Shown here: piece after piece, positions 26,093-47,473 of the stretch
How positions within the stretch are numbered: position 1 is the stretch's first letter
Layout: each line of letters starts with the position of its first letter
Source of the DNA: Sulfurimonas sp.
Lineage (GTDB): Bacteria; Campylobacterota; Campylobacteria; Campylobacterales; Sulfurimonadaceae
Length of the DNA: 47,978 bases
Assembly: GCF_026991475.1 (NCBI RefSeq)
Contig: NZ_JALXBK010000082.1
Location: forward strand, 1-47,978
Direction of reading: 5' to 3'
Position numbers and translations under genes: made by a program
Notes under the pieces: model-generated
The model's input: the letters and a program-made list of their open reading frames with translations, nothing else
Database searches by the model: none
What the model was told of the DNA's origin: nothing

Positions 26093-26109
26093 AAAGAAAA
26101 ACTTAATTT

Positions 26110-28007: not shown

Positions 28008-28016
28008 GTCTATTAT

Positions 28017-28697: not shown

Positions 28698-28763
28698 ACA
28701 AACCCCAAAATAATTTAAAAAAATTATATCTTATAAAGCTTAATTAATGTAGAATTTTATAAA

Positions 28764-28780
28764 TGACCAACAGTCGGTCA
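28764..28780. promoter_or_regulatory. TetR-type operator palindrome
   Basis: TGACCAACAGTCGGTCA is an imperfect palindrome (14 of 17 positions symmetric; half-site TGACCrAC) ending 14 bases before the TetR start codon. Position and shape fit autorepression of the efflux operon by its own first gene. Confidence 0.75.
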
Positions 28781-28794
28781 TAAATGGAGGTTTC

Positions 28795-29391
28795 ATGGCA
28801 ATCATAGTAGATAAAGTCCAAAAGAAAAAAGATATTGCACTTGCTTGTAAAGATCTGTTTGTAAATAACTCTCTTAAAGATTTAACCATTGCAAAGATTG
28901 CTGCAAACGCAGGTATTAGCAAGGGGAGCATTTATGACTACTTTCAAAACAAAGAAGAGATAGTTTTTGAACTGCTCCGTCATATGATGCTTGAGCATGA
29001 TGAAGCAAAAGAGCGTAAACTTAAAAGTGTCACTACTGCAAAAGAGAGAGTCAAAATATTTGCTGAGTTTTTCTACAGCGATGAAACAAAAGAGCTAAGA
29101 GAAATCTATAAAGACTTTATATCCATAAATCTTACAGCACCAAATGAGCATATAACAAGCTTTCAAACAGAGTGTGTAAATAGATACTTTAACTGGATGT
29201 GCAACATCATTCAAGATGGAATAGATAATCAAGAGATTATTCCAAAATCTATAGATATAGCAAAAGGGCTCTTTGCGCTTGGTGAGGGGATGTTTATTTC
29301 AAGTAGCATTACAAATACAATAGACGATTTACAAAAAGAGCTCAATCAAAACATAGAGACAATATTTTCTCTAATAGAGGTGAAAAAATGA
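28795..29391 (+). CDS. TetR/AcrR family repressor
   Basis: A 198-residue TetR-family regulator. The DNA-binding domain is complete: DIALACKDLFVNNSLKDLTIAKIAANAGISKGSIYDYFQNKEEI (about residues 13-56) shows the IA--AGISKG-IY-YF pattern. The C-terminal ligand-binding domain is unlike well-known ones. SD GGAGG at 28786-28790 is ideal. It is the first gene of an operon for a tripartite efflux pump and overlaps tolC by ATGA. The palindrome directly upstream is its probable operator, so it likely represses its own operon until an inducer binds. Confidence 0.92.
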   Translation: MAIIVDKVQKKKDIALACKDLFVNNSLKDLTIAKIAANAGISKGSIYDYFQNKEEIVFELLRHMMLEHDEAKERKLKSVTTAKERVKIFAEFFYSDETKELREIYKDFISINLTAPNEHITSFQTECVNRYFNWMCNIIQDGIDNQEIIPKSIDIAKGLFALGEGMFISSSITNTIDDLQKELNQNIETIFSLIEVKK

Positions 29392-30626: not shown

Positions 30627-31336
30627 TGAAAAAAATAGTCATAACACTATTCATGTTTGTGAGCCTTGTAAACGCAGCAGAGATTTATGCTACATTTATA
30701 GTCCATCCAATGAGAGATGCAAACCTTGCATTTATTGCAAGTGGAATCGTTGATAAAGTAGATGTAAGCGTTGGTAGCCATGTCAAAAAGGGAGAAGTTC
30801 TCGCACAGTTACAAAACAACGATATAAAAGCAATGTTAGCTGTTGCCAAGACTACTTTTAAATATGCTAAAAAAAATTATGAGAGACAGTTAAAGATTAA
30901 AAATCTCATTGATGAAGCAAAATTTGATGCAGTTGCAAATAGATACGAGAGTGCAAAAAATCAACTTGCCTATCAACAGGCACTCTATAACAAAACATTT
31001 CTAAAAGCTCCTTTTGATGGCGTTATATATGCAAAAGAGATTGAAAAAGGGGATGCTGTTAGTGGTATGATGCTTCGTACTGCGTTTAAAATACAAAGTA
31101 TTTCAAAAAGAAAACTTCTGCTTAGCTTTGATCAAAAAAATAGAAATATTGTACATGTAGGAGAAAAGTTCAAGTATCAACTTGATGGCGATGGCAAAGA
31201 GTATTTTGGCACAATATCAAAGATTTATCCTAGAGCAAATTTTAACGATAGAAAAATAAGTGCTGAAGTAATTACAAAAGATTTTCTTCCTGGTCTTTTT
31301 GGAGATGGTTACATCATCTCAAATGCAAAAAAGTAG
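30626..31336 (+). CDS. RND efflux periplasmic adaptor (membrane fusion protein)
   Basis: A 236-residue adaptor linking the RND pump to TolC. It has a signal peptide (ending VNAAE), a split lipoyl domain (GIVDKVDVSVGSHVKKGEVLAQL and the returning KAPFDGVIYAKEIEKGDAV), a short helical hairpin between them and a beta-barrel domain after about 150. At 236 residues it is much shorter than the usual 350-400, lacking most of the membrane-proximal domain. This is known for compact adaptors and fits a minimal pump. Start and stop overlap or nearly touch neighbours. Confidence 0.88.
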   Translation: MKKIVITLFMFVSLVNAAEIYATFIVHPMRDANLAFIASGIVDKVDVSVGSHVKKGEVLAQLQNNDIKAMLAVAKTTFKYAKKNYERQLKIKNLIDEAKFDAVANRYESAKNQLAYQQALYNKTFLKAPFDGVIYAKEIEKGDAVSGMMLRTAFKIQSISKRKLLLSFDQKNRNIVHVGEKFKYQLDGDGKEYFGTISKIYPRANFNDRKISAEVITKDFLPGLFGDGYIISNAKK

Positions 31337-31342
31337 TCTTTT

Positions 31343-34300
31343 ATGTATAAAATAGCAATAAACAGACCTATAACAACACTCATGTATGTTATGACATTGG
31401 TCGTTTTTGGATACTTGAGTTTTAAGAGTATGCCCTCTGCCCTCTTTCCAAACATTGACTTTCCCATAGTTACCATAAAAACCATCTACCCTGGAGCTGA
31501 ACCAAGTACGATAGAGTCAGAAGTAACAGATAAAATAGAAGAAGCCATCTCTCAAATTGGTGGGGTTGATAGCATCACTTCAACAAGTTCAGATGGTGTT
31601 AGTGTTGTTATTGTCAAATTCTTTTTACAACGAAATATTGATGAGGCAACAAATGATGTTAGAGATAAAGTCTCTGCGGTTACACTTCCAAGAGAGGCAA
31701 GGACTCCACTTGTAAGCAAACTTGACATCGGTAGTGCGCCTGTCATTAATGTTTTTTTAACAGCAAAAAAAGATAGTCAAAAAAATCTTATGCTCTTTGC
31801 TGATGAGAAAGTAAAACCAGCACTTCAAAAGATTATTGGCGTAGGTGGTGTCAATATCATCGGTTATAGAGATAGAGAGATAAAAATCTTTCCAAATATC
31901 GATGCACTCAATAAATATGGTATTACTGTTTTAGAACTCAACAGAGATGTAGAGAATGAAAATGTGAAAATAGGTGGTGGTAAAATCATCACAAAAGAGC
32001 ATAATTTTATTTTAAAAGTCCATGCTGATGCTATGAATGTCAAAGATTTACAAAATATAAAAATCAAAGATGGCATACGACTAAAAGATGTGGCAACTGT
32101 TGTCGATACACTGAGTGATGCACAAAGTTACTCCTCTTATAATGGAGTTCAGGGTGTAATGCTTGAGGTACAAAAAATTTCTGGAACAAATACCCTTGAT
32201 GTTGTAAAGAGAGTAAAGGCCACCATTCCAGCGTTAAACAAACTTAGCGATGGAAGATTTGGCATAGATTTACTACAAGATACTACGCCATTCATCATAA
32301 ATTCACTTAATGATGTAAAATTTGATCTTATTTATGGTGCTATTCTTGCAGCAATTATTATCTTTATATTTTTACGAAATATACGCATTACTTTTATATC
32401 TGCACTCTCTATTCCAGCATCAATCTTTGGTACTTTTGCTCTTATGAATGCTATGGGATATGATTTGAATAAAATGACACTTATTGGGCTTACACTTGCC
32501 ATCGGGATTATCATTGATGATGCTATTGTTGTAATTGAAAATATTTACAAAAAGATGGAAGCTGGTATGGGAAAATTTGAAGCAGCTTATGAGGGTACAA
32601 AAGAGATGGCATTTGCTATTTTAGCGATTTCAGCAATGCTTCTTTCTGTATTTTTACCTGTTTCCAATATGAGCGGAATTGTTGGAAAGTTCTTTGAGAG
32701 TTTTGCTATGACAGTTGGCTTTGCCATCATTATCTCCTACACAATCGCACTCAGTTTTATTCCAAGCCTAAGTGCAAGAGTACTGCATAAGGGAGAGAGC
32801 CGTTTTTACAACTTTACAGAACCATTTTTTGTATGGTTAGAAAATATTTATGCATCTATTCTAAAGCTTGTACTGCGTTTTAGAATCTCTTCAATCCTTC
32901 TTGTGATTGCCCTTTTTATAGCTTCGCTCTCCCTCTTTCCTAAAATTGGTATGGACTTCATTCCAAAAGAGGATAAAGCAGAATTTGCTGTAAAAATAAA
33001 AGCCCAACCAGGTATATCACTCCAAGAGATGATACAAAAATCAAAAGCTGTAGAAGATAAAATAAGAGAGAACAAATATGTTGCGTTTACAACACTAAGT
33101 ATCGCTTATGATGCAGCTAAAGAGAAGAACAAAGCACTTATTTATGTCAAACTTATACCAAAAATGAAAAGAGCAATAAAACAGGAGCAAATCATACAAA
33201 ACACTAGAGATGTGCTCAAACCTTTCTCTAAAAATCTTTTTATAACGGCTGCTGCTATTCCAGATATTAAAGGTGCAGGGGTAAGTGTTCCTTATCAAAT
33301 TGTACTCAAATCAGACTCCTTTGCCTCTTTAGAAAAGGCAAAAGAGAATCTTGTAGCCGCACTAAAAGCAAAAAAAGGTTTTGTGGATATTGATACAAAT
33401 CTTGAAAGACCAAAACCAGAGTACAACATCACTATTCTTAGAGAAAATGCCAGCCTGCTTGGCATTAGTGCTACACAAATAGCCTCTGCTATTGCCACGG
33501 CATTTTCAAGTGATATTGCAATTTCACACTTTGAAGAGAAAGGCAAACAGTATGATATTACTCTGCGCTTTAATGATGCCAATAGAAAAAGTATATCAGA
33601 TCTTAAAAAGATACAACTCCGTGCAAAAAATGGAGATTTAGTATTTTTAAGTGGACTTATAAACATCACAAAAGCATCTGCACAGGCTACAATATATCAC
33701 TATGACAGACAAAGACAGGTAACAGTTTACTCAGACCTATTTGGACTCGATCTTGGTGGTGCTCTGAAATACACTCAAGCGAAAATAAACAAACTACTCC
33801 CAAAAGGTGTTACATATAGATTTACTGGTTTTGCTGAAGAGATGGGGAAAACGGCCAAAGCATTTGGTGTTGCGCTAGGACTCTCCGTCATTCTTATGTT
33901 CATTATTTTAGCAATTTTGTATGAATCACTTATACAGCCAATTATCATTATGTTTGCACTGCCACTAAGTATCATCGGGGTTATGCTGGCACTCTATATG
34001 AGCCACTTACACTTTTCTCTCTTTGTTATGATTGGATTTATGCTCCTGATGGGTATGGTTGGTAAAAATGCCGTCTTACTTGTTGATTTTGCCAATGGCG
34101 CAAGAGCAAAAGGAAAGAGTGCTGATGAAGCACTGCTCGAAGCTGGAGAGAAGAGACTTCGTCCAATTCTTATGACTACATTTGCTATGATCTTTGCAAT
34201 GCTACCACTTGCACTAGGCGATGGAATAGGAAGTGAAACAAAAGCACCAATGGCAATCTCAATCATTGGAGGACTTTTAAGTTCTATGATACTGACACTT

Positions 34301-34384
34301 TTCGTAGTCCCTGCAATCTACAAACTTATCAACCCAATAGATACATGGCTAAGAAAATTTTATGAAGTTGGAAAAGTCTCATGA
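31343..34384 (+). CDS. RND efflux pump permease (HAE1 type)
   Basis: A 1013-residue proton-driven inner-membrane pump of the AcrB/HAE1 family. Signs are the N-terminal PITTLMYVMTLVVFGY helix, porter motifs (SALFPNIDFPIVTIKTIYPGA and a repeat near 555), and a TM4 proton-relay segment with the essential Asp pair (GIIIDDAIVVIEN). A second set of helices follows residue 860 and ends with VVPAIYKL. Substrate cannot be predicted. It is the last gene of the tetR-tolC-adaptor operon and converges with comM, with only 3 bases between them. Confidence 0.93.
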   Translation: MYKIAINRPITTLMYVMTLVVFGYLSFKSMPSALFPNIDFPIVTIKTIYPGAEPSTIESEVTDKIEEAISQIGGVDSITSTSSDGVSVVIVKFFLQRNIDEATNDVRDKVSAVTLPREARTPLVSKLDIGSAPVINVFLTAKKDSQKNLMLFADEKVKPALQKIIGVGGVNIIGYRDREIKIFPNIDALNKYGITVLELNRDVENENVKIGGGKIITKEHNFILKVHADAMNVKDLQNIKIKDGIRLKDVATVVDTLSDAQSYSSYNGVQGVMLEVQKISGTNTLDVVKRVKATIPALNKLSDGRFGIDLLQDTTPFIINSLNDVKFDLIYGAILAAIIIFIFLRNIRITFISALSIPASIFGTFALMNAMGYDLNKMTLIGLTLAIGIIIDDAIVVIENIYKKMEAGMGKFEAAYEGTKEMAFAILAISAMLLSVFLPVSNMSGIVGKFFESFAMTVGFAIIISYTIALSFIPSLSARVLHKGESRFYNFTEPFFVWLENIYASILKLVLRFRISSILLVIALFIASLSLFPKIGMDFIPKEDKAEFAVKIKAQPGISLQEMIQKSKAVEDKIRENKYVAFTTLSIAYDAAKEKNKALIYVKLIPKMKRAIKQEQIIQNTRDVLKPFSKNLFITAAAIPDIKGAGVSVPYQIVLKSDSFASLEKAKENLVAALKAKKGFVDIDTNLERPKPEYNITILRENASLLGISATQIASAIATAFSSDIAISHFEEKGKQYDITLRFNDANRKSISDLKKIQLRAKNGDLVFLSGLINITKASAQATIYHYDRQRQVTVYSDLFGLDLGGALKYTQAKINKLLPKGVTYRFTGFAEEMGKTAKAFGVALGLSVILMFIILAILYESLIQPIIIMFALPLSIIGVMLALYMSHLHFSLFVMIGFMLLMGMVGKNAVLLVDFANGARAKGKSADEALLEAGEKRLRPILMTTFAMIFAMLPLALGDGIGSETKAPMAISIIGGLLSSMILTLFVVPAIYKLINPIDTWLRKFYEVGKVS

Positions 34385-34387
34385 CTT

Positions 34388-35896
34388 TTACCTTCTTCTA
34401 TATGAAATCGCTTCTAAGATATGCTTTTTCTTTATAAGTTGTGATTTCTCCAAATCTGCAATTGTTCTAGCTACCTTTTGTACTTTTTTAATACTTCTAA
34501 ATGAGAGTTTAAACCTATCAACTGCCATCGCTAGAACACTTTGTGCCTCAGCATCTAAGGTGCAATACTGCTCTATCTCTTTATCGCTCATAGCTGCGTT
34601 TAGACTTATCTGCCCTCGCCTTTTTGCAAAAATATGAGCTTCGACAACCATCTTGTGCATCTCTTTTGAGGAGTAACTTGCTTTATCATCAACATTTACA
34701 TTTTGCATCACTACACTTAAATCTATTCTGTCTAAAAAAGGATCAGAGAGACGATTTTTATACCTTTGTATCTCTAAATCACTACATCGACACTCTCTAT
34801 GTGCATCAAGTAAATTTCCACAAGGGCAAGGGTTCATAGCACCTATAAATAAAAACTTTGCAGGATACTCTACCTTTGAGTTTACACGAGAAATTCTAAT
34901 TTTTCCATCCTGCATAGGCTCTCTTAAAGACTCTAAAACATTTTTAGAAAAATGCGGTAACTCATCGAAAAATAAAATACCATTATTAGCAAGTCCAACT
35001 TCTCCTATTTTTGCCTTATGTGAACCACCACCAAATATGCTCGCCATAGTAGAAGTATGATGAGGATTTTTTATGGCTCTTCTAGGGCTAAAAGAGGGTT
35101 CATCGCCTTGCAAAACTTCTAACTTGGCACTGTCTAAAATTTCACTTGCACTCATAGGCGGTAAAATATAACGCAATCTACTTGCTATCATACTTTTACC
35201 ACACCCAGGGCTACCTTCAAAAATAATATTATGAAAACCAGCCGCTGCAATAAGAGCTGCTCTTTTTGCCACTTCCTGACCACGAACATCTATAAAATCT
35301 TCATCATACTCTTTCATATAATAGTACCGCTCATTAGCAATCTCATAGCTAGGGTAATCAATCTCTGACTTTTGAATACTTGGCTCAAAGTTTTCTTGAT
35401 TTTTTAAAATTTCTACAGCTTCATTAAGATTTTTTACTCCATAAAAAGCAACATTTGGAATTTTTGATAATTTTTCCAAAGATTCATAAGGAACAAGTGC
35501 TTTAGAAATAAGTCCCTGATTTGCAAGAGAGAGAATGAGAGGATAGAGCTGAATATTCTCTTTTACGCTGCCATCAAGCCCTAATTCACCAAAAACGAAC
35601 CACTCACCTAAATCTGTATCGACTGCGTTTAGTAAAATAAGTAACGCCATACTTAAATCAAATTGTGAACCAGATTTTGCAAGTTCTGATGGGGCAAGTA
35701 AAAAGGTGATACGTTTGGGAGGAAAAGTAAAATCATTACTTAAAAGTGCAGATTTGACACGTTCTTTTGACTCAGTAATAGCGGTTGATGCCATACCGAC
35801 AATAGAGAAAGAGGGTAAACCTTTTGTGAGTGTTGATTCTACATCAACAACTTTTGCAGCGATACCCTCATATGTTGCACAACGGACTGTTTTCAT
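34388..35896 (-). CDS. comM: YifB/ComM family Mg-chelatase-like AAA ATPase
   Basis: A 502-residue hexameric helicase-like ATPase. ComM promotes branch migration when transformed DNA recombines into the chromosome. The N-terminal ChlI-like domain covers about 1-170, Walker A is GSPGCGKS (228-235), Walker B is ILFFDELPHF, and the C-terminal Mg-chelatase domain contains QRYKNRLSDPFLDRIDL. A zinc-like CPCGNLLDAHRECRC segment follows the sensor region. Together with def, clpP and tig it forms a block also seen in Helicobacter. It carries two AAACGCAG elements (34594, 35623). Confidence 0.9.
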   Translation of the reverse strand: MKTVRCATYEGIAAKVVDVESTLTKGLPSFSIVGMASTAITESKERVKSALLSNDFTFPPKRITFLLAPSELAKSGSQFDLSMALLILLNAVDTDLGEWFVFGELGLDGSVKENIQLYPLILSLANQGLISKALVPYESLEKLSKIPNVAFYGVKNLNEAVEILKNQENFEPSIQKSEIDYPSYEIANERYYYMKEYDEDFIDVRGQEVAKRAALIAAAGFHNIIFEGSPGCGKSMIASRLRYILPPMSASEILDSAKLEVLQGDEPSFSPRRAIKNPHHTSTMASIFGGGSHKAKIGEVGLANNGILFFDELPHFSKNVLESLREPMQDGKIRISRVNSKVEYPAKFLFIGAMNPCPCGNLLDAHRECRCSDLEIQRYKNRLSDPFLDRIDLSVVMQNVNVDDKASYSSKEMHKMVVEAHIFAKRRGQISLNAAMSDKEIEQYCTLDAEAQSVLAMAVDRFKLSFRSIKKVQKVARTIADLEKSQLIKKKHILEAISYRRR

Positions 35897-35965
35897 ACTA
35901 TTTTCCTTTAAAAAAATAGTACACTAATTCTCAAAAAATATGCAACAATATGACATTTTGCCATA

Positions 35966-36490
35966 TTATTTTTTCTGTTTTCTCTCTTTAAGCATTTTTT
36001 TGTACTCTTTTTCAAACTTTTTACGTCGTGAATAGGAAAGATGATCTATAAATAAAATCCCTTCAAGATGGTCTATTTCATGCTGAATAGCAATAGCAAG
36101 CAAATCATCTGCTTCTAAAATTTTGGTATTTCCATGTCTATCCTGATAATGTAGCGTTATCTTTTCATAGCGTGTGACATCTTCATAAAATTTTGGAACA
36201 CTTAAACAACCCTCTTGATAGCTTGTCTCTCCAGACTTAGCCGTAATCACAGGATTAATTATCTCTAAAAGATTTTCAGGAGGTTGCTCACCATCTTCAT
36301 TTGGAATATTTAGAATTAAGGCTCGAATAGGATAATTCACCTGAATAGCAGCAAGACCAATTCCATTTGTTTCAATCATAAATGGATGCATTGCATCTAA
36401 AAGTTTATGTAGTTTCGCATCAAAAGTTTTAATCTCTTTAGATTTATCTTTTAGACGCTTATCTGGATACTCAACAATTGTTAATTGCAT
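35966..36490 (-). CDS. def: Peptide deformylase
   Basis: Deformylase removes the formyl group from new proteins using a metal ion (Fe or Zn). The 174-residue protein has the three motifs: GIGLAAIQ (43-50), EGCLSVP (93-99, metal-ligand Cys95) and HEIDH (137-141). The C-terminus is lysine-rich. It lies in the block tig-clpP-(GGDEF)-def-comM; the gene upstream ends 15 bases before its start. In H. pylori and C. jejuni clpP and def are neighbours without the GGDEF gene. Confidence 0.96.
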   Translation of the reverse strand: MQLTIVEYPDKRLKDKSKEIKTFDAKLHKLLDAMHPFMIETNGIGLAAIQVNYPIRALILNIPNEDGEQPPENLLEIINPVITAKSGETSYQEGCLSVPKFYEDVTRYEKITLHYQDRHGNTKILEADDLLAIAIQHEIDHLEGILFIDHLSYSRRKKFEKEYKKMLKERKQKK

Positions 36491-36505
36491 ATTTTTTTCA
36501 CTCTC

Positions 36506-37564
36506 TTATTTTGCTCGTAATGATACGGCATAATCTAATTTTTTACTCTCGTATGCTTTTTCAACAGCATTCATAGCACTTACTACTATCTCTTCGACAG
36601 AATGTCTTGTGTCTATATCTGTTATTCCTATAGAAATTCGTAACTGTATCTCACGATCAGCTAGAAAAAAGTTGGAGTTAGAAACTAAATCACATAATCT
36701 TTCACTCGCTTTCTTTGCACTTGGAATATCCGTATGTTTTAACAACATTGCAAAAACTCCATTTCCATAATGTGCCACAATATCACTTCGTCTTGAGGTT
36801 TTAAGAAGTAGTCTTGCTATTGTTCGTGTCATTAAGGTAAGAGCTTTTTCATTAGTAATATTTTGTTTAAGCGTTTTAGAAAGCTCTATCATAATAAGTG
36901 AACTAGGGTGATTAAACTTAGATATAAGCTCTATCTCCTGCTCAATTTTTGTTAGTAAATAACGTTTATTATAAACCCCGAATTTATTGTCAAAGATAGT
37001 CTCATTTTCAACACTTTTCACAATTTTTGCAGTTGCATCATAAGAGTTTTTCATTTGAACACTTTGTGTCTTTAAAATTGAGTTGAGTTTTGAAACATCA
37101 CCCTCTAAAATACTCACAATACCAATAGCTTCACTAATTTCAGGATCTTTTGCAAGCTCCTCTTTTCTTTTTTCAAGAATCTTTGTCATTAAAGACATAT
37201 TTTTATAAAGATTTGCAGTAGTATTTAAAATATTTTTAATTGAAGAAAAGCCCTGTTTAAGACTCTTTTCTAGTTCTATGGTTGTCTCTGTATCATTACT
37301 CTCTTCAAGCTCTAACATATCATGAATTTGCTTGCGAACATTTTCACTTTTATCTTCTAAAAGTCTATCAAAATAGAGAGAAAAATTATTTGGGGTAGGA
37401 GGAAGGCTATCTGCTATAAGGGCATTTAAGACCTCTTTTGCGTAGATTTCAATATCACTAGAGACATTTGTGTCATTAAGAGTTTTTATGACAGGTACTT
37501 TTTGTGTATCATCAGCAATATTATCAATATTTCTTCGACTTCTTCGCTTTAGTGAACCTGCCAT
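36506..37564 (-). CDS. GGDEF-like domain protein with degenerate active site
   Basis: A 352-residue soluble protein with a helical N-terminal half (about 40-190, partly coiled-coil) and a C-terminal diguanylate-cyclase fold (about 190-345: NKFGVYNKRYLLTKIEQEI at its start, IRISIGITDIDT near its end). The catalytic GGDEF motif reads HYGNGVF (265-271), so the metal-binding acidic residues are lost and synthesis of c-di-GMP is unlikely. It might bind c-di-GMP or another nucleotide, or serve as a partner. It is inserted between clpP and def, probably in one transcript with them (9- and 15-base gaps). Confidence 0.8.
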   Translation of the reverse strand: MAGSLKRRSRRNIDNIADDTQKVPVIKTLNDTNVSSDIEIYAKEVLNALIADSLPPTPNNFSLYFDRLLEDKSENVRKQIHDMLELEESNDTETTIELEKSLKQGFSSIKNILNTTANLYKNMSLMTKILEKRKEELAKDPEISEAIGIVSILEGDVSKLNSILKTQSVQMKNSYDATAKIVKSVENETIFDNKFGVYNKRYLLTKIEQEIELISKFNHPSSLIMIELSKTLKQNITNEKALTLMTRTIARLLLKTSRRSDIVAHYGNGVFAMLLKHTDIPSAKKASERLCDLVSNSNFFLADREIQLRISIGITDIDTRHSVEEIVVSAMNAVEKAYESKKLDYAVSLRAK

Positions 37565-37573
37565 ATTAACCCC

Positions 37574-38164
37574 TTACTCTTTGTCGTTTTTAATTAAAAC
37601 TTCATCAATCATTCCGTAATCCTTTGCCTCTGCAGCACTCATAAAGTTATCACGATCTGTATCTTTTTCAATAGTTTTAGTAGTTTGACCTGTATTTTTA
37701 GCCAAAATAGCGTTAAGCTCTTTTTTCATACGTAAAATTTCTTCTGCTTGAATAGCTATATCTGTAGCTTGTCCTTGTGCCCCACCAAGTGGTTGATGAA
37801 TCATAATACGAGCATGAGGCAATGCATAACGCTTACCTTTTTCACCAGAACTTAATAGAAATGAGCCCATTGAAGCAGCCTGACCTATACAAATAGTTGC
37901 TACATGTGGACGGATATAATTCATAGTATCAAATATTGCCATCCCAGCAGTTACAACTCCACCTGGAGAGTTAATGTAGAAATAGATGTCTTTTTCAGGG
38001 TCTTCTGCTTCAAGAAATAAGAACTGCGCCACTATTGTAGAAGCAACAGCATCATTCACCTCGCCGCTAAGCATAACGATTCTATCTTTTAAAAGACGTG
38101 AAAAAATATCGTATGAACGCTCACCACGTCCACTTTTTTCTACTACATAAGGAATGTAACTCAT
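37574..38164 (-). CDS. clpP: ATP-dependent Clp protease proteolytic subunit
   Basis: ClpP is the tetradecameric serine protease core used with ClpA/ClpX ATPases. The 196-residue protein starts [20 protein letters not shown] and has the catalytic triad: Ser98 (GQAASMGS), His123 (MIHQPLGG) and Asp172 (TDRDNF). The start has an SD in the short gap (3 bases) after tig, which indicates tight coupling. The tig-clpP order is nearly universal in this phylum. Confidence 0.97.
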
Positions 38165-38167
38165 ACT

Positions 38168-39466
38168 TTATGCTTCTATTTTTTCATTTAAAAGAGTTGA
38201 TAAAACTCTATCTTCTACCATTGACATTTGGATTGCAGGAAGATAACCAGCATCTTTATATTGTTCATACGCTTTTTGTGGATCTTGTCCCATTTGCATA
38301 GCTTCATAGTAAATTGTTTGCATCACTTCTTGCTCTTCAACTTTAATACCCATATCTTGTGCTAATGCGTCAATAATAAAAGTTGCTTTTACACTTTGAA
38401 TAGCATCATCACGGAAAGTTTCACGAAGCTCACTAAGTTTGTCTGCATTCTCACGAAGCTCTTTTATCTCATCTTCACTCATCTGGGATGCTTTTTTGTT
38501 TAGAGCCATATCAATCTCTTGTTCAACAACAAATTCTGGAAGATCAAAGTTGATTTTTTCTACTAATGTCTCTAAAAGTTTTGGTTTTAACTCTTCATTA
38601 TAAAGTTTTGCAAGTTTTTCTTGTTCTATCGCTTTTTTTACTTCAGCTTGTAATTTTTCTAGACTTGCTTCTTCATCACCTTGTAAAAGTTTTTTTGCTA
38701 ACTCATCATCAACAACAACCTCATCTTTTACTTTAATTTGATTTACTTTTACTTTAAACTCTGCAGCTTTACCAGCTAATGCTTCAGCACCATAGTTTTC
38801 AGGGAAAGAGACAGGAAGTGTAACTTCTTCATCACGCTTTACACCAATAAGTTGTTCTTCAAATCCAGGAATAAATTGCCCTGAACCAAGAGTAAGCTCA
38901 AAGTTTTCACCTTTTCCACCCTCAAAAGCTTCACCATCAATAAAACCTTCAAAATCAATAACAGCTACATCACCCTCTTTCATTTTACGGTTGCGTTTAA
39001 TATCAACTAAAGGAGCTTGCCCCTCTGCAATTTCTTTAATTCTTGCATCAACCTCTTCATCTGTAACTTCTGGTTTTGTAAAATCTGGTACTAAAGATTT
39101 TACATCGCCAAGGTCAATTTGGGGACGCATTGCAACTTTTACAGCTACTTCAATTTTATCATCACTTTTATCAAATTTAGAAATAGTAGGCTCTCCAATT
39201 AAAGAATCATTGCTAATTCCAAGTTCATCAAGACCTTTAGAAAGTACCTCGCGAAGTGCTTCAGCTTCAGCATCTTCAACAAGTTTTTCACCATATTGCT
39301 TTTTCACTACAGCAACCGGAACTTTACCTTTACGAAAACCCTGAACATTTGCAGTTTTAGACAACTCTTTAGCAATTTTTTCAATGTTGGCATCTACTTC
39401 ATCTCTTAAGATTGTAGCTTCTATCTCAGCATTCGCACCATTAATTTTATTTGATTTGATTTCCAT
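38168..39466 (-). CDS. tig: Trigger factor
   Basis: Trigger factor is the ribosome-associated chaperone and peptidyl-prolyl isomerase. The 432-residue protein has an N-terminal ribosome-binding domain (about 1-145, with GFRKGKVP near 45), an FKBP-type domain (about 150-240; EGDVAVIDFEGFIDGEAFEGG and IPGFEEQLIGVK) and a helical C-terminal domain. The ATG at 39466 is chosen over the TTG one codon upstream; AAGGA lies 8 bases before it. It heads the tig-clpP-GGDEF-def-comM row. Confidence 0.97.
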   Translation of the reverse strand: MEIKSNKINGANAEIEATILRDEVDANIEKIAKELSKTANVQGFRKGKVPVAVVKKQYGEKLVEDAEAEALREVLSKGLDELGISNDSLIGEPTISKFDKSDDKIEVAVKVAMRPQIDLGDVKSLVPDFTKPEVTDEEVDARIKEIAEGQAPLVDIKRNRKMKEGDVAVIDFEGFIDGEAFEGGKGENFELTLGSGQFIPGFEEQLIGVKRDEEVTLPVSFPENYGAEALAGKAAEFKVKVNQIKVKDEVVVDDELAKKLLQGDEEASLEKLQAEVKKAIEQEKLAKLYNEELKPKLLETLVEKINFDLPEFVVEQEIDMALNKKASQMSEDEIKELRENADKLSELRETFRDDAIQSVKATFIIDALAQDMGIKVEEQEVMQTIYYEAMQMGQDPQKAYEQYKDAGYLPAIQMSMVEDRVLSTLLNEKIEA

Positions 39467-39540
39467 CAATTTCCTTTATATTTTATTGTATAGTATTAGC
39501 ACTATTATTTTGGGCAATAATACCAAAAAAGTGCTTTTAT

Positions 39541-39996
39541 CTAGCTTTTACAAAACTTAGGTCTAAAGTTAAGCAAAAGTATCCATGCAACTGCCACATC
39601 TATCATCACATCAGCAAAGTTAAAAACAGCAAAATTAAATCCACAATGCCAGTAAACCATATCAACCACACCGCCATGAATAAAGCGGTCATAAATGTTT
39701 GAAAACGCAGCCCCAAGCAAAATTCCAGCAGGCATAGCATAACAGAGCTTTTTAAGATAAAAAACATATCCCATTACACCAAGAACCAAGACCAATTGTA
39801 TATATTTCAAATACTCTGCTAAAAAAGAGAACATTGAAAATGCCACACCCTTGTTATAAACTAAAATCAGATCTATACAATTTGTATAATAACGAAAGCC
39901 ATCCACAAAAAGCGACTTAATATTTTGATCTATAATAAAGATACCTGCTAATGAAAAGAGCAGCGTAGCACTTAAACGCAGCGACTTATTAGGCAT
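39541..39996 (-). CDS. lspA: Lipoprotein signal peptidase
   Basis: LspA cuts signal peptides from prolipoproteins (SoxD and others here) in the inner membrane. From the ATG at 39996 it has 151 residues with four membrane helices. Motifs visible are IIDQNIK near the start, [27 protein letters not shown] and [12 protein letters not shown], containing the two catalytic Asp residues. The frame is open to a TTG at 40011. The chosen start overlaps the glmM stop by 8 bases (ATGCCTAA). Two AAACGCAG elements (39703, 39974) lie in antisense orientation. Confidence 0.93.
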
Positions 39997-41332
39997 TGAG
40001 TGCTTTTTCAAAAAATGTTATTAAATCATCCATAGAAGCATTCATTTTTTTAGCCTCTTTTCCCTCAATAAGCAATCTTAGTTTATTCTCTGTTCCTGAG
40101 TATCTTACAAGATGACGCATATTGTCATTTTCAATAGCAGCCAATTTTTCATCCAATCCCTCTATCTCTTCTAAAGGTTTTTTTACCTTTACTTTTATAT
40201 TTGTTAAATTTTGAGGATAGAGTTTAAATGGACGCAGTGCCTTTGATGCTTTTTTATTTGTTCTAATTAAAAGTGCTAAAATTTGTAAAGCACTCACAAG
40301 TCCATCACCTGTTTTAGCAAAATCATTTACAATAATATGACCACTCTGCTCACCACCAAAGTTAATCCCTTTTTCACGCATCAGTTCTAGTACATATTTA
40401 TCACCAACATTAGAACGGTAAAGCGTAATGCCATTCTCTTTTGTATAATCTTCAAGCCCTTGATTACTCATTACAGTTGCTACTATGCCCTTACCTTTAA
40501 GTTTGCCCTCTTTATGCATATATACTCCAAGAGCACCAAGAAGATGATCACCATCTACTATCTCTCCTTTTTCATCAACAACTACTATTCTATCGGCATC
40601 ACCATCAAGTGCAATTCCAAGATCAGCACGGTATTTAACAACATTTTCTCCCAACTCTTTAGGATGCAGCGCTCCACAGTTTTCATTAATATTAAAGCCA
40701 TTTGGCTCATTATTGAGTACAACAATATCTGCACCAAGCTCCTCTAAAACTGTTGGACCAACTTTATAAGCAGCACCATTTGCAGTATCAAGCACTATTC
40801 TCATGCCATGAAGTGATAAATCAAGAGGAAAAGAGTTTTTTAACTGTACTATATAACGACCAATCACATCATCAATTCTTTTTGCTTTACCTATTGCTGT
40901 TGCAGTTACTTGTCCTTCAAGAATTGCTTCAGAATCATTTGCAATTGCTTCTATCTCTCTCTCAATTGCCTCAGAGAGTTTATTACCATCACCATCAAAA
41001 AATTTAATTCCATTATCTTCAAAAGAGTTATGAGAAGCACTAATCATTATACCTGCATCACAACGCATATTTTCTGTTATAAACGCAATAGCAGGAGTCG
41101 GCATAGGTCCAATTTGAATAACATCATATCCTGTTGCTGTAAGTCCTGCAACAATTGCATTTTCTATCATATATCCGCTGATTCTTGTATCTTTACCTAC
41201 AAGAATTCTATTATTAACAGAGTTCTTTCTAAAGTAAATACCAGCAGCCATTGCCACACGCATTGCCAAACCTGCAGTTAAAAATGAACCTGCCTCACCT
41301 CTTACACCATCTGTACCAAATAATTTTTGCAT
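39989..41332 (-). CDS. glmM: Phosphoglucosamine mutase
   Basis: GlmM interconverts glucosamine 6-phosphate and 1-phosphate on the way to UDP-GlcNAc for peptidoglycan and lipid A. From the ATG at 41332 it has 447 residues and starts [12 protein letters not shown], the family's canonical N-terminus; the frame extends 4 codons to a TTG. The phosphoserine loop is GIMISASHN (Ser100), the metal loop DGDADR lies near 243, and the sugar-binding loop GGEQSGHI and the phosphate-binding [10 protein letters not shown] segment follow. lspA overlaps its end. The pair glmM-lspA next to rpsT-prfA is also found in Helicobacter. Confidence 0.97.
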
Positions 41333-41428
41333 TATGTTATCCAAATTTTAAATTACCATATTTTAACATAATTCTATTATTATTTTACTTTTAACTTGTC
41401 TTTAACTTAATTTTAATTATCTTTAAGC

Positions 41429-41434
41429 TATTAT
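41429..41434 (+). promoter_or_regulatory. Putative rpsT promoter with phased T-rich runs
   Basis: TATTAT (41429-41434) lies about 30 bases before rpsT. Upstream, TTTTAACTTG, TCTTTAACTT, TTTTAATTA and TCTTTAAGC repeat at about 10-11 base intervals. This is the periodic T-rich pattern that replaces the -35 box in Campylobacter and Helicobacter sigma-70 promoters. Confidence 0.5.
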
Positions 41435-41464
41435 TGCGCACTTAAAATTCCAAAAAGGACTAAA

Positions 41465-41725
41465 ATGGCAAATCACAAGTCATCAATTAAGAGAATTCGT
41501 CAAACAATCGTTCGTACAGAACGTAATCGTTTTTACAGAACTCGTCTTAAGAACATCGTAAAAGCAGTAAACACAGCAGTAGAAGCTGGAAATAAAGAAG
41601 AAGCACAAGTAGCATTTAAAGTTGCTAACCAACAAATTCACAAATTCGTAAGCAAAGGTATTCTTAAAAAAGAAACTGCAGCTAGAAAAGTAAGCCGTCT
41701 ACACAAATCTGTAAACGCAATATAA
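41465..41725 (+). CDS. rpsT: 30S ribosomal protein S20
   Basis: An 86-residue basic helical protein that binds 16S rRNA. It starts [14 protein letters not shown] and contains [15 protein letters not shown] and [18 protein letters not shown], all typical of S20. SD AAAGGA lies 7 bases upstream. It is divergent from glmM and is followed 12 bases later by prfA in one transcript. An AAACGCAA near-match (one base off the repeated 8-mer) lies at its very end. Confidence 0.97.
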
Positions 41726-41737
41726 GGTAAGCTACTT

Positions 41738-42805
41738 ATGTTAGCAGATAAACTTACACCGTTTATCAACCGCTACAATGAACTTAGCGAATTGCTAAGT
41801 TCACCTGACATTACTTCTGACATTAAAAGAATGACAGAGCTCTCAAAAGAACAATCTTCACTTTTACCTATTGTTGAAAAGACAAAAGAGTACCAAACAC
41901 TTATTCAAGACATCGAAGATACAAAAGAGATGTTAAGTGATTCTGAAATGGGCGATATGGCAAAAGAGGAGCTCAAAGAGCTTGAACCACAAAAACCTAT
42001 AATGGAAGAAGAGATAAAAATGCTTCTACTTCCAAAAGATCCTAATGATGATAGAAATATCATTGTTGAACTTCGTGCAGGTGCGGGTGGAGATGAAGCT
42101 GCTATCTTCGTAGGCGATTTGTTTGATGCCTACACACGATATGCAGATTTGAGAGGCTGGAAGATTGAAATTATCTCTACTTCACCATCAGATGCTGGTG
42201 GGTACAAAGAGGTTACAGCACTCATTAAAGGTGAACAGGTTTACAGTCGGTTGAAATATGAAGGTGGAACACACCGTGTGCAGCGTGTTCCTGCGACAGA
42301 ATCTCAAGGACGCGTGCATACTTCAGCAATTACAGTTGCCGTTATGCCTGAAGTAGATGATGTTGAGATTGAGATTAACGATAATGATTTACGCATAGAT
42401 GTTATGCGCTCATCTGGATGTGGAGGACAATGTGTAAATACAACTGACTCAGCTGTTAGAATTACACACATACCATCAGGTTTAGTAGTAACAAATCAAG
42501 ATCAAAAATCGCAACATAAAAATAAAGATAAGGCAATGAAAGTCTTAAAAGCAAGACTTTATGACTTACAAATGCAAGAGCAACAGTCTGAAAATGCAGC
42601 GGAGAGAGCAGCACAAGTAGGAACGGGTGATAGAAGTGGTCGTATTCGTACCTACAACTATCCACAAAACCGTATAAGTGATCATAGAATTAACTTAACG
42701 CTCTACCGTCTTGCTGAAATTATGGGTGGTGGTTTACTCGATGAAATAGTCGAACCACTTATAGCAGACCATCAAGCAAAAATTGTTGAGGCAGCTGGGT
42801 TATAA
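41738..42805 (+). CDS. prfA: Peptide chain release factor 1
   Basis: RF1 ends translation at UAA and UAG. The 355-residue protein has the codon-recognition motif PAT (185-187, in RVPATESQG) that separates RF1 from RF2, and the GGQ motif at 229-231 ([15 protein letters not shown]), whose Gln is normally methylated by PrmC. Cysteines replace the usual Ala and His around GGQ, which I believe is a lineage trait and not a defect. It converges with dapF, with 10 bases between the stops. Confidence 0.96.
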
Positions 42806-42815
42806 TCCAGCCTGC
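42791..42815. terminator. Bidirectional hairpin between prfA and dapF
   Basis: GCAGCTGG and CCAG-C-CTGC pair (8 bp, one bulged C) around GTTATAAT. The hairpin overlaps the end of prfA and the gap to the dapF stop. Short T-rich stretches follow on both strands. It is a plausible shared terminator, though not a strong one. Confidence 0.5.
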
Positions 42816-43589
42816 TTAAACTTCCCACTCTGTCTCAAAAGTTTTTTTCACTCTTCCTTTAAAAGTAATCGTTTTCCCGTTGTAACCAAGGTAGAGAGTA
42901 TCGCCACTTGTAGGATAAACTTCAATGTTATTTTGTACTTTTTCTTCTTTAAAAGCTCTATAAAAGCAAGCAGACATTCCTGTTCCACATGCTAATGTTT
43001 CATCTTCCACACCACGCTCATAAGTGCGTACACGAAGATTTCCATCCTCTGTAATATGCATCACATTTACATTGGCATTATAGACATAACGCAATTCGCG
43101 TGCCTCTTCTATGTCAAAATTCTCTATAGTCTCACTATATCTTACAAGATGCGGGACACCTGTATTTATAAGCCACCAAGTATGCCCATTAAACACAATT
43201 TCTTGCTCAAGAATTTGAGGAGGAGTCAGTTCACTCTCAACCATAGCACTCTTTGGAGTGTTCTGCTCTACTCTTGCAGCTATAACGCCAGCACCTGTTA
43301 AAAATCTCATCTTTGCGGGGGCTATACCGTTGTTAAAAGCATAGTGTGCACAAGCACGACTTCCATTACCACACATATCTGCATGAGAGCCATCTGAATT
43401 ATAAAATTGCCACTCAAAATCATACTCATCTGCTTTTTTCTCATTTGGCAGCAACACGATAAGTCCATCAGCCCCTACTCCCTCCTGACGATGACAAACT
43501 ATTTTCGCAAGTTCGCTTCTATCCTCTTTTACATCCGAGTGAAATATTACAAAATCATTTCCATTGGCACTATATTTTGCTAATCTCAT
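42816..43589 (-). CDS. dapF: Diaminopimelate epimerase
   Basis: DapF converts LL- to meso-diaminopimelate for lysine and peptidoglycan. The 257-residue protein has both catalytic cysteines in their motifs: MCGNGSRACAHY (Cys73) and ETLACGTGMSA near 206. It starts MRLAKYSANGNDFVIF. Its ATG overlaps the coaE stop (ATGA), so the two are co-translated. The dapF-coaE neighbourhood near purM is also found in Campylobacter jejuni. Confidence 0.95.
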   Translation of the reverse strand: MRLAKYSANGNDFVIFHSDVKEDRSELAKIVCHRQEGVGADGLIVLLPNEKKADEYDFEWQFYNSDGSHADMCGNGSRACAHYAFNNGIAPAKMRFLTGAGVIAARVEQNTPKSAMVESELTPPQILEQEIVFNGHTWWLINTGVPHLVRYSETIENFDIEEARELRYVYNANVNVMHITEDGNLRVRTYERGVEDETLACGTGMSACFYRAFKEEKVQNNIEVYPTSGDTLYLGYNGKTITFKGRVKKTFETEWEV

Positions 43590-44179
43590 AAGTAGATCTC
43601 CTTAATTTTTTCTACAAAATTTTCTACTTCATTTTGCAGATGTTTTAAGTTCTTTGAATTATCTATTACCCAAGTAGCACGCCCTTTTTTATCATCAATT
43701 GGAAGCTGTGAGGCAATGCGTTTAAGTGACTCCTCTTTAGAGTAACCGTTGCGTTTCATAAAACGCTCAAGTTGCACCTCTTTTGGAGTATAAACTACTA
43801 CACTCTCTTTAATATCGTAGTTTCCATTTTCAAAAAAAAGAGGAATATCAATAAGATAAGGAAATTTAAAACTATCTTGTTTCTCACTGCGTTTTTGAAT
43901 TTCACTCTTAATTTTTGGGTGCAAATAGTGTTCCAAAGTCTCTTTTGCTTGTGGATGAGAGAAAATATACTCTCCAAGTTTTGCACGGTTTACTTTGGTA
44001 CCCAGAAGATACTCATCCCCAAAAGTCTCCCTAACCCACTCAGTAGATGCATCCAAAATCTCATGTGAAATTGTATCTGCATCAATGACTCTCATACCAT
44101 TAAGAGCTAAAAGAGAAGCAACAGTACTCTTACCAGTTGCTATACTTCCAGTAAGGGCAATAGCATACTCGTACGCCAT
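43586..44179 (-). CDS. coaE: Dephospho-CoA kinase
   Basis: CoaE performs the last step of coenzyme A synthesis. The 197-residue protein has the P-loop GSIATGKS (11-18), a nucleotide-substrate segment RVIDADTISHE (31-41) and the lid helix region VYTPKEVQLERFMKRNGYSKEE. Start and stop overlap its neighbours (TAATG with the upstream SpeE-like gene and ATGA with dapF), so the three genes form one translationally coupled transcript. One AAACGCAG element (43887) lies inside. Confidence 0.94.
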   Translation of the reverse strand: MAYEYAIALTGSIATGKSTVASLLALNGMRVIDADTISHEILDASTEWVRETFGDEYLLGTKVNRAKLGEYIFSHPQAKETLEHYLHPKIKSEIQKRSEKQDSFKFPYLIDIPLFFENGNYDIKESVVVYTPKEVQLERFMKRNGYSKEESLKRIASQLPIDDKKGRATWVIDNSKNLKHLQNEVENFVEKIKEIYL

Positions 44180-44727
44180 TAGTTTTTAATAATACCCAAG
44201 TACTCTTTTTTGATGTAATTTCCCATAGCAAACGCAGCAGGATGTACATCGGAGTTATAATACTCAAGTCCATCTATTAAATCAGCACGATTTAAAATAA
44301 TGTCGGCTGTAGGATGATACTCTTTTGATGCCAAAAGTGCGGTTGTACAATCTCCAAGATTATATGGCATAACAATTCTTGCATATTTACCAAGAATTTG
44401 CATAATATTTTTGTTAGCATCCACATCATCAAGATTGGGATGTTTAACAACACTAAGGCCTTCTTCGTTAAGCACACGGTTAATATGTGCTAAAACAGCC
44501 GCATCATTTTCAAGTTCTGAAATAACCACATCATACTTATTATCTTCAACTTCTCGTAACAGATTCATTTCAGCAGAGATAACATCACAACTAATATCGT
44601 CCATATACTTTTGTATTTCTGTGACAAAACCAGCTGCATTTGAGCTTATAATAAGTACATTTTTCGGCTCTTTATGTGTACAAAGCGGTACGTGTACCAT
44701 CATCTCATTGTAAATAAATTCTTTCAT
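44179..44727 (-). CDS. Shortened SpeE-like (spermidine synthase-related) protein, probably inactive
   Basis: A 182-residue relative of aminopropyltransferases. YNEMMVHVPLCTHKEPKNVLII aligns with the YHEMLVH-PL-HP-PK-VLII stretch of SpeE, and the end GLEYYNSDVHPAAFAM aligns with the LRYYN-D-H-AAFALP stretch, as in Helicobacter SpeE. The N-terminal beta-domain of about 55 residues is missing. The AdoMet-binding GGGDGG is replaced by SSNAAG, and the catalytic SD--DP region reads SELEND. It is therefore unlikely to make spermidine. It is the first gene of a transcript with coaE and dapF. Confidence 0.75.
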   Translation of the reverse strand: MKEFIYNEMMVHVPLCTHKEPKNVLIISSNAAGFVTEIQKYMDDISCDVISAEMNLLREVEDNKYDVVISELENDAAVLAHINRVLNEEGLSVVKHPNLDDVDANKNIMQILGKYARIVMPYNLGDCTTALLASKEYHPTADIILNRADLIDGLEYYNSDVHPAAFAMGNYIKKEYLGIIKN

Positions 44728-44821
44728 TGTATAAATTCCTTTAATTTAGAAGCGATTTTAACATATTAGGATTAATTTTACTTAAGTATTGATATAATTA
44801 CAAAAAGTTTAAAGGTATCTA

Positions 44822-45016
44822 ATGGATTTCAATAAAATTAGAAAAGTATGTAGAGTAGTACGTATTGTTGTAGGGCTTGCATTAATTGTAACTGGCGTAA
44901 TTACTGGTATCAACTGGTTCTATTTAGGTGTGCTTCCTCTTATCGCTGGAATAGCAAATTTCTGTCCACTTTGTATTTTTTCAAAAAAATGCGATTTACC
45001 ACAAGAAACGGAGTAG
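44822..45016 (+). CDS. DUF2892 (YgaP-like) small membrane protein
   Basis: A 64-residue inner-membrane protein with two hydrophobic helices (about 14-30 and 33-46) separated by a Gly-Asn-Trp turn, followed by FCPLCIFSKKC. This matches the DUF2892/YgaP transmembrane module, often attached to rhodanese domains but free-standing here. Three cysteines after the second helix might bind metal or sulfur. The gene ends 3 bases before purM, with which it is probably co-transcribed. AAAGGT lies upstream as a weak SD. Confidence 0.75.
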   Translation: MDFNKIRKVCRVVRIVVGLALIVTGVITGINWFYLGVLPLIAGIANFCPLCIFSKKCDLPQETE

Positions 45017-45019
45017 ATA

Positions 45020-46018
45020 ATGGGTCAAATTAGTTATAAAGATGCTGGTGTAGATATAGACGCTGGAAACAGTTTTGTAGAAAATATTAAACCTTTAGTA
45101 AAAAGTACAAAAGTTCCTGGTGTTTTAGGTGGTATAGGCTCATTTGCCGGTGCATTTGAACTTCCAAAAGGTTTTAATGAACCTGTAATGCTTGCTGCAA
45201 CTGATGGAGTTGGTACAAAACTAAAACTCGCAATTGACAGTGGTATTCACAATACTGTAGGAATAGACCTTGTTGCAATGTGTGTCAATGACCTCATTTG
45301 TAATTTTGGTACACCCTCTTTCTTTTTAGACTACTACGCTACTGGTAAACTTGATGTAAATGTAGCGACTAATGTCGTAGCAGGCATTGCAGAGGGTTGT
45401 AAACGCAGCGAATGTGCACTTATAGGCGGCGAGACAGCAGAGATGCCAGGAATGTACTCTGAAGATGACTACGACCTCGCAGGCTTTGCAGTGGGTGTTG
45501 CTGAAAAGTCTGAAATGGATAGAGTATCACTTGTACGAGCTGGACACAAGCTCATAGCCCTTCCAAGTTCAGGTCTACACTCAAATGGTTTCTCACTAGC
45601 GCGTAAAGTCTTATTTGAAAAGATGAATATGAAGTTTGAAGAAGATTTCAATGGTAAGCCACTTATCGAAACACTTTTGACACCGACAAATATCTATGTA
45701 AAGACTTTTAAAGAGTTAAAAAATGAAATAGTCGCAATGGCACATATCACAGGTGGAGGAATAGTAGAAAATCTTCCTCGTGTACTTCCCGAAAACTTAA
45801 TGGCAGAGGTACAAAAAGATGCAATTAAAGTATTACCTATCTTTGAACTTATGAGCGAACATATAGAACGCGATGAAATGTTTAGAGCATTTAACATGGG
45901 TGTAGGTATGATACTTGTCGTTGAAGAAGAAAATGTTTCAAAAGTACTTAAAACGGCAGAAGGCTCTTACCTTATAGGTGAAATAAAAGAAGGCGCACGC
46001 GAAGCCAAAATGGTATAA
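45020..46018 (+). CDS. purM: Phosphoribosylformylglycinamidine cyclo-ligase (AIR synthetase)
   Basis: PurM closes the imidazole ring (FGAM to AIR) in purine synthesis, using ATP. The 332-residue protein has ISYKDAGVDIDAGN at its start, DGVGTKLKLA (ATP-binding strand), GIDLVAMCVNDLICNFG, LIGGETAEMPGMY and AHITGGGIVENLPRVLP, all typical of PurM. The start is ATG 4 bases after the DUF2892 stop. Two hairpins follow its stop, one being a paired AAACGCAG element. A further element lies at 45401. Confidence 0.97.
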   Translation: MGQISYKDAGVDIDAGNSFVENIKPLVKSTKVPGVLGGIGSFAGAFELPKGFNEPVMLAATDGVGTKLKLAIDSGIHNTVGIDLVAMCVNDLICNFGTPSFFLDYYATGKLDVNVATNVVAGIAEGCKRSECALIGGETAEMPGMYSEDDYDLAGFAVGVAEKSEMDRVSLVRAGHKLIALPSSGLHSNGFSLARKVLFEKMNMKFEEDFNGKPLIETLLTPTNIYVKTFKELKNEIVAMAHITGGGIVENLPRVLPENLMAEVQKDAIKVLPIFELMSEHIERDEMFRAFNMGVGMILVVEEENVSKVLKTAEGSYLIGEIKEGAREAKMV

Positions 46019-46037
46019 GAGAGGAACTTCTCCTCTT
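46019..46037 (+). terminator. Small hairpin directly after the purM stop
   Basis: GAGAGGA (46019-46025) pairs with TCCTCTT (46031-46037), 7 bp with one G-T, around ACTTC. No T tract follows, so it is weak alone; it may act together with the paired AAACGCAG hairpin 24 bases later. Confidence 0.4.
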
Positions 46038-46060
46038 ACCACACATAACTATTCTTTCGT

Positions 46061-46081
46061 TAAACGCAGCAACTGCGTTTA
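46061..46081. terminator. Hairpin of two inverted AAACGCAG elements after purM
   Basis: TAAACGCAG (46061-46069), CAA, CTGCGTTTA (46073-46081) is a perfect 9-bp inverted repeat formed by two copies of the window's dispersed 8-mer. It lies 43 bases downstream of the purM stop, where a transcription terminator is expected. Paired uptake sequences acting as terminators are known in Neisseria and Haemophilus. Confidence 0.75.
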
Positions 46082-46197
46082 GCAACACATAACCCCTCAA
46101 AATTACTTTCACATAGATTAAAATTAAATCATATAGATATAAAAAATAAAATTGTTATTTTTGAAGAAGAGAGTTTATAAAGAGTTGTATAGTAATA

Positions 46198-46219
46198 AAT
46201 ACCGCCAAAAGACGGTATT
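46198..46219 (-). terminator. Hairpin downstream of the FadL-type gene
   Basis: AATACCG (46198-46204) and CGGTATT (46213-46219) form a 7-bp stem with an 8-base loop. On the minus strand it follows the FadL-type stop by about 30 bases and is trailed by TATTACT, a weak T tract. Confidence 0.55.
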
Positions 46220-46249
46220 GAAAGAAAGGAGAATTTCTTTTGTTAGTTC

Positions 46250-47473
46250 TTAGAAATTGTAATTTAACTGCGCACTAACACCAGTTTGCGAGTGTTTTGT
46301 TGTAATTTCATATTCCTGTCCTGCAGTTGGATTATATGCTTTATACGTCTCAGTTTTTTCTGGAGCATAAGTAAATGCTAAATCAACAGATGTTTGCTCA
46401 TTAAGACTATATGTTCCACCAACAGCATAGTGTGATTCAACAATACCAGGAAAACCTAAAAGATTAAACATATTGATTGTATCACCATTTAATCCAGCAC
46501 TATTATTATATGCCATAGATTTTTGAGAAATTGGACTTGATGCATAGTTATAACCTAAACGTGCTGCCCAACCTTTTGTTTTATACTCATATCCTAAAGA
46601 GATTACATTTTGATCATCCCACTCAAAATCTTCATATCCTTTTGCATCAGACCATTTAATTTGTTTATAATCAAGTGCAAAAGTATGTTCAGCCATTGCA
46701 TAACTTACACCTAGACCCATTTCTGCAGGAGTAGAAAGTTTATTGTTTGTATAAGCAGGTGATCCTGGATTAATAAATGGCTGTACAAGATTTGCAAAGC
46801 CTTTATACTCCATATCTATTTGAGATTTATAGATAGCACCAACTGTAAAACCAGAAATTTCATATGCTAAACCAATGTTATAACCAAACTCTAAATCTTG
46901 TGCGACACCCATACCCATGACACCATTTGATGGGTTCCCATCCATATCATAATTAATGTCAAGTGATCCATACTGTAAAATTGGTGTAAGCGCAACACTG
47001 AAACCATTAGTTGTATATGCCAAAGGCACACCAAATTGCATAAGTTGAAGATTAGTAACCATATTCATAGTTCCGGCACTTGCTGCAGCATCACGATAGT
47101 CAACACCCATACCACCAGTACCCCACATACCAATACCAACATAAAAATTATCATTAATTTTAGTAGCTAAAGATACCTCAGGAATAACACTCAAATCAGC
47201 ATCACTATCTGCAGTTGTTCCGCCCTGTGAAGCATAACTAACATCTGGCATAAAAAATGTACCACCAAATGAGATCTCTGTATTTTTTACAGATGTAATC
47301 AATGCAGGATTCACTAATGCCGATTCAGCTCCATGCGCCATACCAATACCAGTTCCAGCCATACCACGAGCTTCAGCACCCATACCTATTAAAGCTGCAC
47401 CATTTGTTGCAAACGCAGAAGTTGTACCTAAAGCTAAAGCAGCTACTACTGCTAATTTAATCGTTTTTTTCAT
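46250..47473 (-). CDS. FadL/OmpP1/TodX family outer-membrane transport protein
   Basis: A 407-residue outer-membrane barrel for hydrophobic substrates. It has a signal peptide (cleavage after TSAFA) followed by TNGAALIGMGAEARGMAGTGIGMAHGAES, the N-terminal hatch signature of FadL (NG-x-G-GA-A-AG). SALVNPALITSV is the conserved NPA segment, alternating strands follow, and the end LNYNF-stop has a terminal Phe for Bam-dependent insertion. SD GAGGAGA is strong. FadL proteins import fatty acids or aromatic compounds; substrate unknown here. The base composition and repetition of Gly and Tyr are normal for a barrel. Confidence 0.9.
   Translation of the reverse strand: MKKTIKLAVVAALALGTTSAFATNGAALIGMGAEARGMAGTGIGMAHGAESALVNPALITSVKNTEISFGGTFFMPDVSYASQGGTTADSDADLSVIPEVSLATKINDNFYVGIGMWGTGGMGVDYRDAAASAGTMNMVTNLQLMQFGVPLAYTTNGFSVALTPILQYGSLDINYDMDGNPSNGVMGMGVAQDLEFGYNIGLAYEISGFTVGAIYKSQIDMEYKGFANLVQPFINPGSPAYTNNKLSTPAEMGLGVSYAMAEHTFALDYKQIKWSDAKGYEDFEWDDQNVISLGYEYKTKGWAARLGYNYASSPISQKSMAYNNSAGLNGDTINMFNLLGFPGIVESHYAVGGTYSLNEQTSVDLAFTYAPEKTETYKAYNPTAGQEYEITTKHSQTGVSAQLNYNF

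Follow-up and report, generated by a model that had tools for sequence, protein, structure and literature searches.

The purM locus and its hairpin

The DNA analysed here (the window) is a stretch of 47,978 nt from a Sulfurimonas genome (contig NZ_JALXBK010000082.1). Close to its end, purM and a gene for an outer-membrane protein of the OmpP1/FadL family converge (Table 1). The spacer between them carries an exact TAAACGCAG-CAA-CTGCGTTTA, read directly from the window, which begins 43 nt downstream of the end of the purM stop codon. Its arms are two copies of the word AAACGCAG, one on each strand, with the loop CAA (positions 46070–46072) between them; the 9 bp consist of the 8-mer arms and one flanking T/A pair (positions 46061/46081). 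The sequence-only reading had described this inverted repeat, and both its sequence and its coordinates are exact. The same reading called it the sole intergenic occurrence of the word and the only inverted pair in the window, and this also holds: the copies at 46062 and 46073 are the only two of 30 located outside open reading frames, and no other copies lie within 100 nt of each other.

The transcript of the purM spacer should fold into a stable hairpin. The predicted structure has a folding energy of −14.5 kcal/mol (z = −6.35), and none of 200 shuffled sequences folds equally well.

Table 1. Features of the purM region and extent of the AAACGCAG copies in the window
Feature	Position	Strand	Evidence
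AAACGCAG copies, dispersed (30 in all, 28 inside open reading frames)	1710..47418	.	
purM, phosphoribosylformylglycinamidine cyclo-ligase	45020..46018	+	TIGR00878, E = 3.4e-121
Further 7-bp hairpin, immediately 3′ of the purM stop codon	46019..46037	+	Folding, −8.6 kcal/mol
RNA hairpin predicted for the facing pair, 11-bp stem including one G-U pair, 3-nt loop, no T-run after it	46059..46083	+	Folding
Perfect 9-bp inverted repeat, TAAACGCAG-CAA-CTGCGTTTA	46061..46081	.	Direct reading
Forward AAACGCAG copy, flanks T and C, fits YAAACGCAGY	46062..46069	+	
Reverse AAACGCAG copy, own-strand flanks T and T, fits YAAACGCAGY	46073..46080	-	
Predicted hairpin of 9 bp, 3′ end of the OmpP1/FadL-family gene	46198..46219	-	Folding
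OmpP1/FadL-family outer-membrane protein gene, convergent	46250..47473	-	PF03349, E = 1.3e-29

Two other stems are predicted in the spacer. One directly follows the purM stop codon and recurs at this position in loci of relatives (L045, L046, L047 and L048), with TTTTT after it in L047; it is more likely to be the native 3′-end element of purM. The other lies at the 3′ end of the OmpP1/FadL-family gene, for which it is a candidate terminator, and is conserved in G170, L045 and L047–L049.

Positions 47908–47978, which are cut by the contig end, look like the first part of a 5S rRNA gene encoded on the minus strand. An Rfam search of the window, this segment included, matched no family. A stretch matching the segment also follows purM in L061, L063 and L070.

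Abundance and distribution of AAACGCAG

The 30 copies of AAACGCAG in the window compare with 1.15 expected, and none of 100 shuffles reaches this number. The whole genome (2.07 Mb in 131 contigs) has 1,344 copies, 669 on one strand and 675 on the other, versus 39 for the word reversed, and the mean spacing is about 1.5 kb. In the 407 kb used for own-genome statistics other than pattern counts (contigs partly picked for holding pairs), AAACGCAG is the top over-represented 8-mer, with 296 copies versus 12.5 expected under a second-order model (z = 80). A pyrimidine is preferred on both sides of the word in these 407 kb, giving YAAACGCAGY; no clear signal was seen there beyond these flanks, nor A/T-rich tracts downstream. 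Counts on the G-rich and C-rich strands are 158 and 138 (GC skew, P = 0.27), i.e. there is no replication-strand bias.

About 97% of the copies are intragenic, and intergenic copies are present as well; as gene calls were simple choices of open reading frames, intergenic counts are approximate. Both strands carry the word, which occupies five of the six coding frames; two of the six account for about 70% of the copies. In a relative with 2,331 copies (G193), an unbiased 400-kb sample gave densities of 1.00 per kb in genes and 0.99 per kb between genes.

Enrichment for AAACGCAG was found in 29 of the 135 Sulfurimonas genomes searched, and most others are near the control. The genomes scored as clearly enriched have counts above four times the control, ranging from about 146 to 2,331. 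Enriched isolates include N3_29 (1,698 copies), 132-544 (1,087) and AUK128 (856); for isolate SZUA-1449 of S. autotrophica the count is 31. Close relatives and sister species include genomes with near-baseline counts, and the distribution is patchy within a single genus. Comparable enrichment is absent from the other sampled genera of the family, and none was seen among about 270 sampled genomes from other families of the order. On a purM tree (32 rows, one gene) the enriched state changes at least five times, and three of these changes are forced by well-supported branches.

Other words were seen in some of these genomes. AAACGCAA is enriched alongside AAACGCAG in G193, G104 and G121, and not in G157. 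In G085 (a 2.76-Mb contig, L257–L259) the top over-represented 7-mer is AACGCCA (28 versus 3.1 in 60 kb), often within TAAACGCCA; it is possibly a dialect of AAACGCAG. In G101 (L299, L300) CTCACGCA, which has ACGCA in common with AAACGCAG, occurs 15 times versus 0.9 in 40 kb, and AAACGCAG is unevenly divided between the two strands (111 and 30 copies), perhaps reflecting a local repeat. Four unenriched Sulfurimonas genomes (G086, G088, G095 and G103; loci L281–L284, L287–L288 and L291–L292) show 9- to 13-fold over-representation of the palindrome TACATGTA. AGATGCT/GCATCTA is 3.5–5 times over-represented in two unenriched genomes (G093 and G199; L285–L286 and L293–L294).

Paired copies and the 3′ end of purM

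The sequence-only reading had named a lack of further paired copies in the genome as evidence against itself. Such pairs are present: genome-wide, 12 facing pairs have loops of 0–30 nt, versus 6.75 expected (P = 0.04). Three have a 3-nt loop, versus 0.22 expected (P = 0.0015, for a spacing chosen post hoc). Back-to-back pairs within 30 nt also number 12; within 10 nt the facing orientation occurs 6 times and the back-to-back orientation 5 times. Of the 12 facing pairs, 10 are intragenic. The abundance of AAACGCAG is far beyond chance; its pairing is only modestly so.

In 24 relatives the two orientations are equally frequent within 15 nt (84 and 84). Intergenic locations account for 16 of 65 facing pairs and 7 of 68 back-to-back pairs, counts that are not independent, the regions having been selected for holding pairs and some being orthologous; nearly all of these lie within 45 nt after a stop codon. 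Facing pairs occur at about a dozen independent gene 3′ ends in the relatives, and several recur across species at matching gene ends with differing loops. The mean extension of the stem is 2.1 pairs for intergenic facing pairs, 0.7 for coding facing pairs and 1.8 for intergenic back-to-back pairs. In the unbiased G193 sample none of the 19 intergenic copies is paired.

The published numbers of facing versus back-to-back pairs within 10 nt are 226 versus 5 in N. meningitidis; for H. influenzae and H. ducreyi they are 50 versus 25 and 6 versus 8 (PMC1852404). In this ratio the hairpin genome resembles H. ducreyi, not Neisseria.

The bases following the 8-mer arms at purM are AGCAACAC on the plus strand and AACGAAAG on the minus strand, with no T-run on either side, and the best 8-base window after the stem contains one T. 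In N. meningitidis a mean of about 3 T is found in the next five bases after a pair (PMC1852404). A terminator scan of positions 44000–47978 gave no site at the hairpin, and the total number of sites was not above that of shuffled sequences. Strong hairpins are present at 14 of 67 gene 3′ ends of this genome, too few to define a typical terminator.

In the relative G170 a pair is also located after purM, with the loop TCA, an identical 11-bp stem plus two more pairs, and different surroundings. The left arm is degenerate in L045 (AAACGTAA), and the purM pair is missing in L046. Retention of the stem in G170, together with the lean of facing pairs to gene 3′ ends, is a hint that the hairpin might itself be functional; it may protect or weakly define the 3′ end of purM. 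It does not look like a classic T-tailed terminator. The observations agree with a picture in which the high copy number of AAACGCAG gives rise to such hairpins and some of them are retained, perhaps as 3′-end structures.

Competence genes and the interpretation of AAACGCAG

The hairpin genome has an uninterrupted comEC gene and the PilT family. Both are near-universal across Sulfurimonas, thus neither explains the patchiness of AAACGCAG and they are not discriminating; each was rejected as the gene behind the patchy enrichment. Eight pilin-like genes are present in the hairpin genome, and two of these lie roughly 8 kb away from comEC (G000:C76:3500-4282 and 11312-11971). Enriched and unenriched species both have two or three such genes about 7–9 kb from comEC (also G193:C24, G157:C55 and G086:C1), and these comEC neighbours are candidate DNA receptors. 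Each of the two comEC-like matches of G157 contains an identical facing pair (at C22:2197-2224 and C55:15714-15741), and the two comEC copies may reflect a mixture of strains in the assembly.

A search of 11 genomes for ComP_DUS (PF16732) gave no match above the cut-off, with weak matches (E-values 0.02–0.4) in unenriched genomes as well, and a neisserial DUS/ComP system proper was therefore rejected for lack of the ComP receptor in these genomes. An uptake role is still compatible with a missing ComP, because the receptor proposed in Pasteurellaceae is a different minor pilin (PMC12616744).

AAACGCAG resembles the neisserial DUS (ATGCCGTCTGAA) and its dialects (PMC3630211, PMC2397512) in several respects. 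There are more than 1,000 exact copies of a short word on both strands, about one per 1–1.5 kb, and the spacing matches that of Neisseria (PMC2397512); related species have variants of the word (PMC3630211), and a type IV pilus and ComEC are present. It differs in being an unrelated word from another phylum, mostly intragenic, with no excess of facing pairs and a patchy distribution within one genus, as well as in the missing ComP_DUS homologue. The USS of Pasteurellaceae (AAGTGCGGT), with 1,471 copies in H. influenzae (PMC1852404, PMC12616744), is similar in copy number, is also mostly intragenic, has a receptor other than ComP and shows an excess of facing pairs that is modest or, as in H. 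ducreyi, lacking. The word is again unrelated, and AAACGCAG has no A/T-rich tracts downstream.

Several properties of uptake sequences are found for AAACGCAG, namely an exact high-copy word on both strands, restriction to a lineage with dialects, and competence machinery. It is probable that AAACGCAG is an uptake-sequence-like repeat of this lineage, and that the purM hairpin consists of two such copies that happen to face each other. We infer an uptake-signal role, spread by biased transformation, and a pilin as the receptor. A DNA receptor of the competence pilus would, most likely, prefer DNA carrying AAACGCAG; copies would then accumulate throughout the genome by biased transformation and recombination, and two facing copies would have settled in a permissive spacer between convergent genes. 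The hairpin would be incidental, or at most a weak 3′-end structure.

An alternative is that the purM pair has been co-opted as an intrinsic (Rho-independent) terminator, a role described for the paired uptake sequences of Neisseria and Pasteurellaceae (PMC1852404). The resemblance includes the facing orientation, the short loop, the stable 11-bp stem 43 nt past a stop codon and the convergent genes on either side, and it is strengthened by the lean of facing pairs to gene 3′ ends in relatives, where some pairs recur although their loops differ, and by the longer stem extension of intergenic than of coding facing pairs. However, a T-run is missing in both directions, facing pairs are not in excess over back-to-back pairs in this genome or in the relatives, most facing pairs of the genome are inside genes, and the stem extension of intergenic back-to-back pairs is nearly equal. 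In addition, both genes already have a conserved hairpin at their 3′ ends, that of purM immediately following the stop codon. A terminator role, proposed in the sequence-only reading, was thus not borne out, and we consider it unlikely. AAACGCAG could also be bound by a methylase or by a protein associated with the chromosome, and serve in nucleoid organisation, segregation or phase control. The genome-wide spread and high copy number would fit such a site equally, but the word is not palindromic, and its near-absence in sister species would be odd for a housekeeping role; a Chi- or KOPS-like role was rejected because there is no GC-skew bias. This explanation appears quite improbable.

A by-product of codon or dipeptide bias, with the hairpin a coincidence, agrees with the intragenic location of nearly all copies and with their concentration in two frames. 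It is ruled out by the occurrence in five frames and on both strands, by the matching densities inside and outside genes in G193 and by the near-baseline counts of close relatives, and we give it almost no credence. The sequence-only reading had held that the pair strengthens an uptake sequence over coding bias; an uptake-like repeat is indeed favoured, but the pair adds little and the genome-wide counts decide.

To our knowledge, genome-wide uptake sequences are established in two families, Neisseriaceae and Pasteurellaceae. No report of uptake sequences in Sulfurimonas or Campylobacterota was found in the literature searched, which covered few subscription journals. The chances seem about even that part of Sulfurimonas has independently evolved self-recognition of the DUS/USS type, with its own word, a pilus-associated receptor and dialects that are gained and lost, the purM hairpin being an early stage of co-option that precedes T-tails. 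If this is true, it would be a third case of uptake sequences, in another phylum and in environmental sulfur oxidisers. Adjacent enriched and unenriched sister species would make the origin and loss of such systems directly testable, and the receptor could be searched for by comparing sister genomes. The lineage would also test whether co-option as terminators follows automatically from uptake sequences, a process that here has apparently barely begun.
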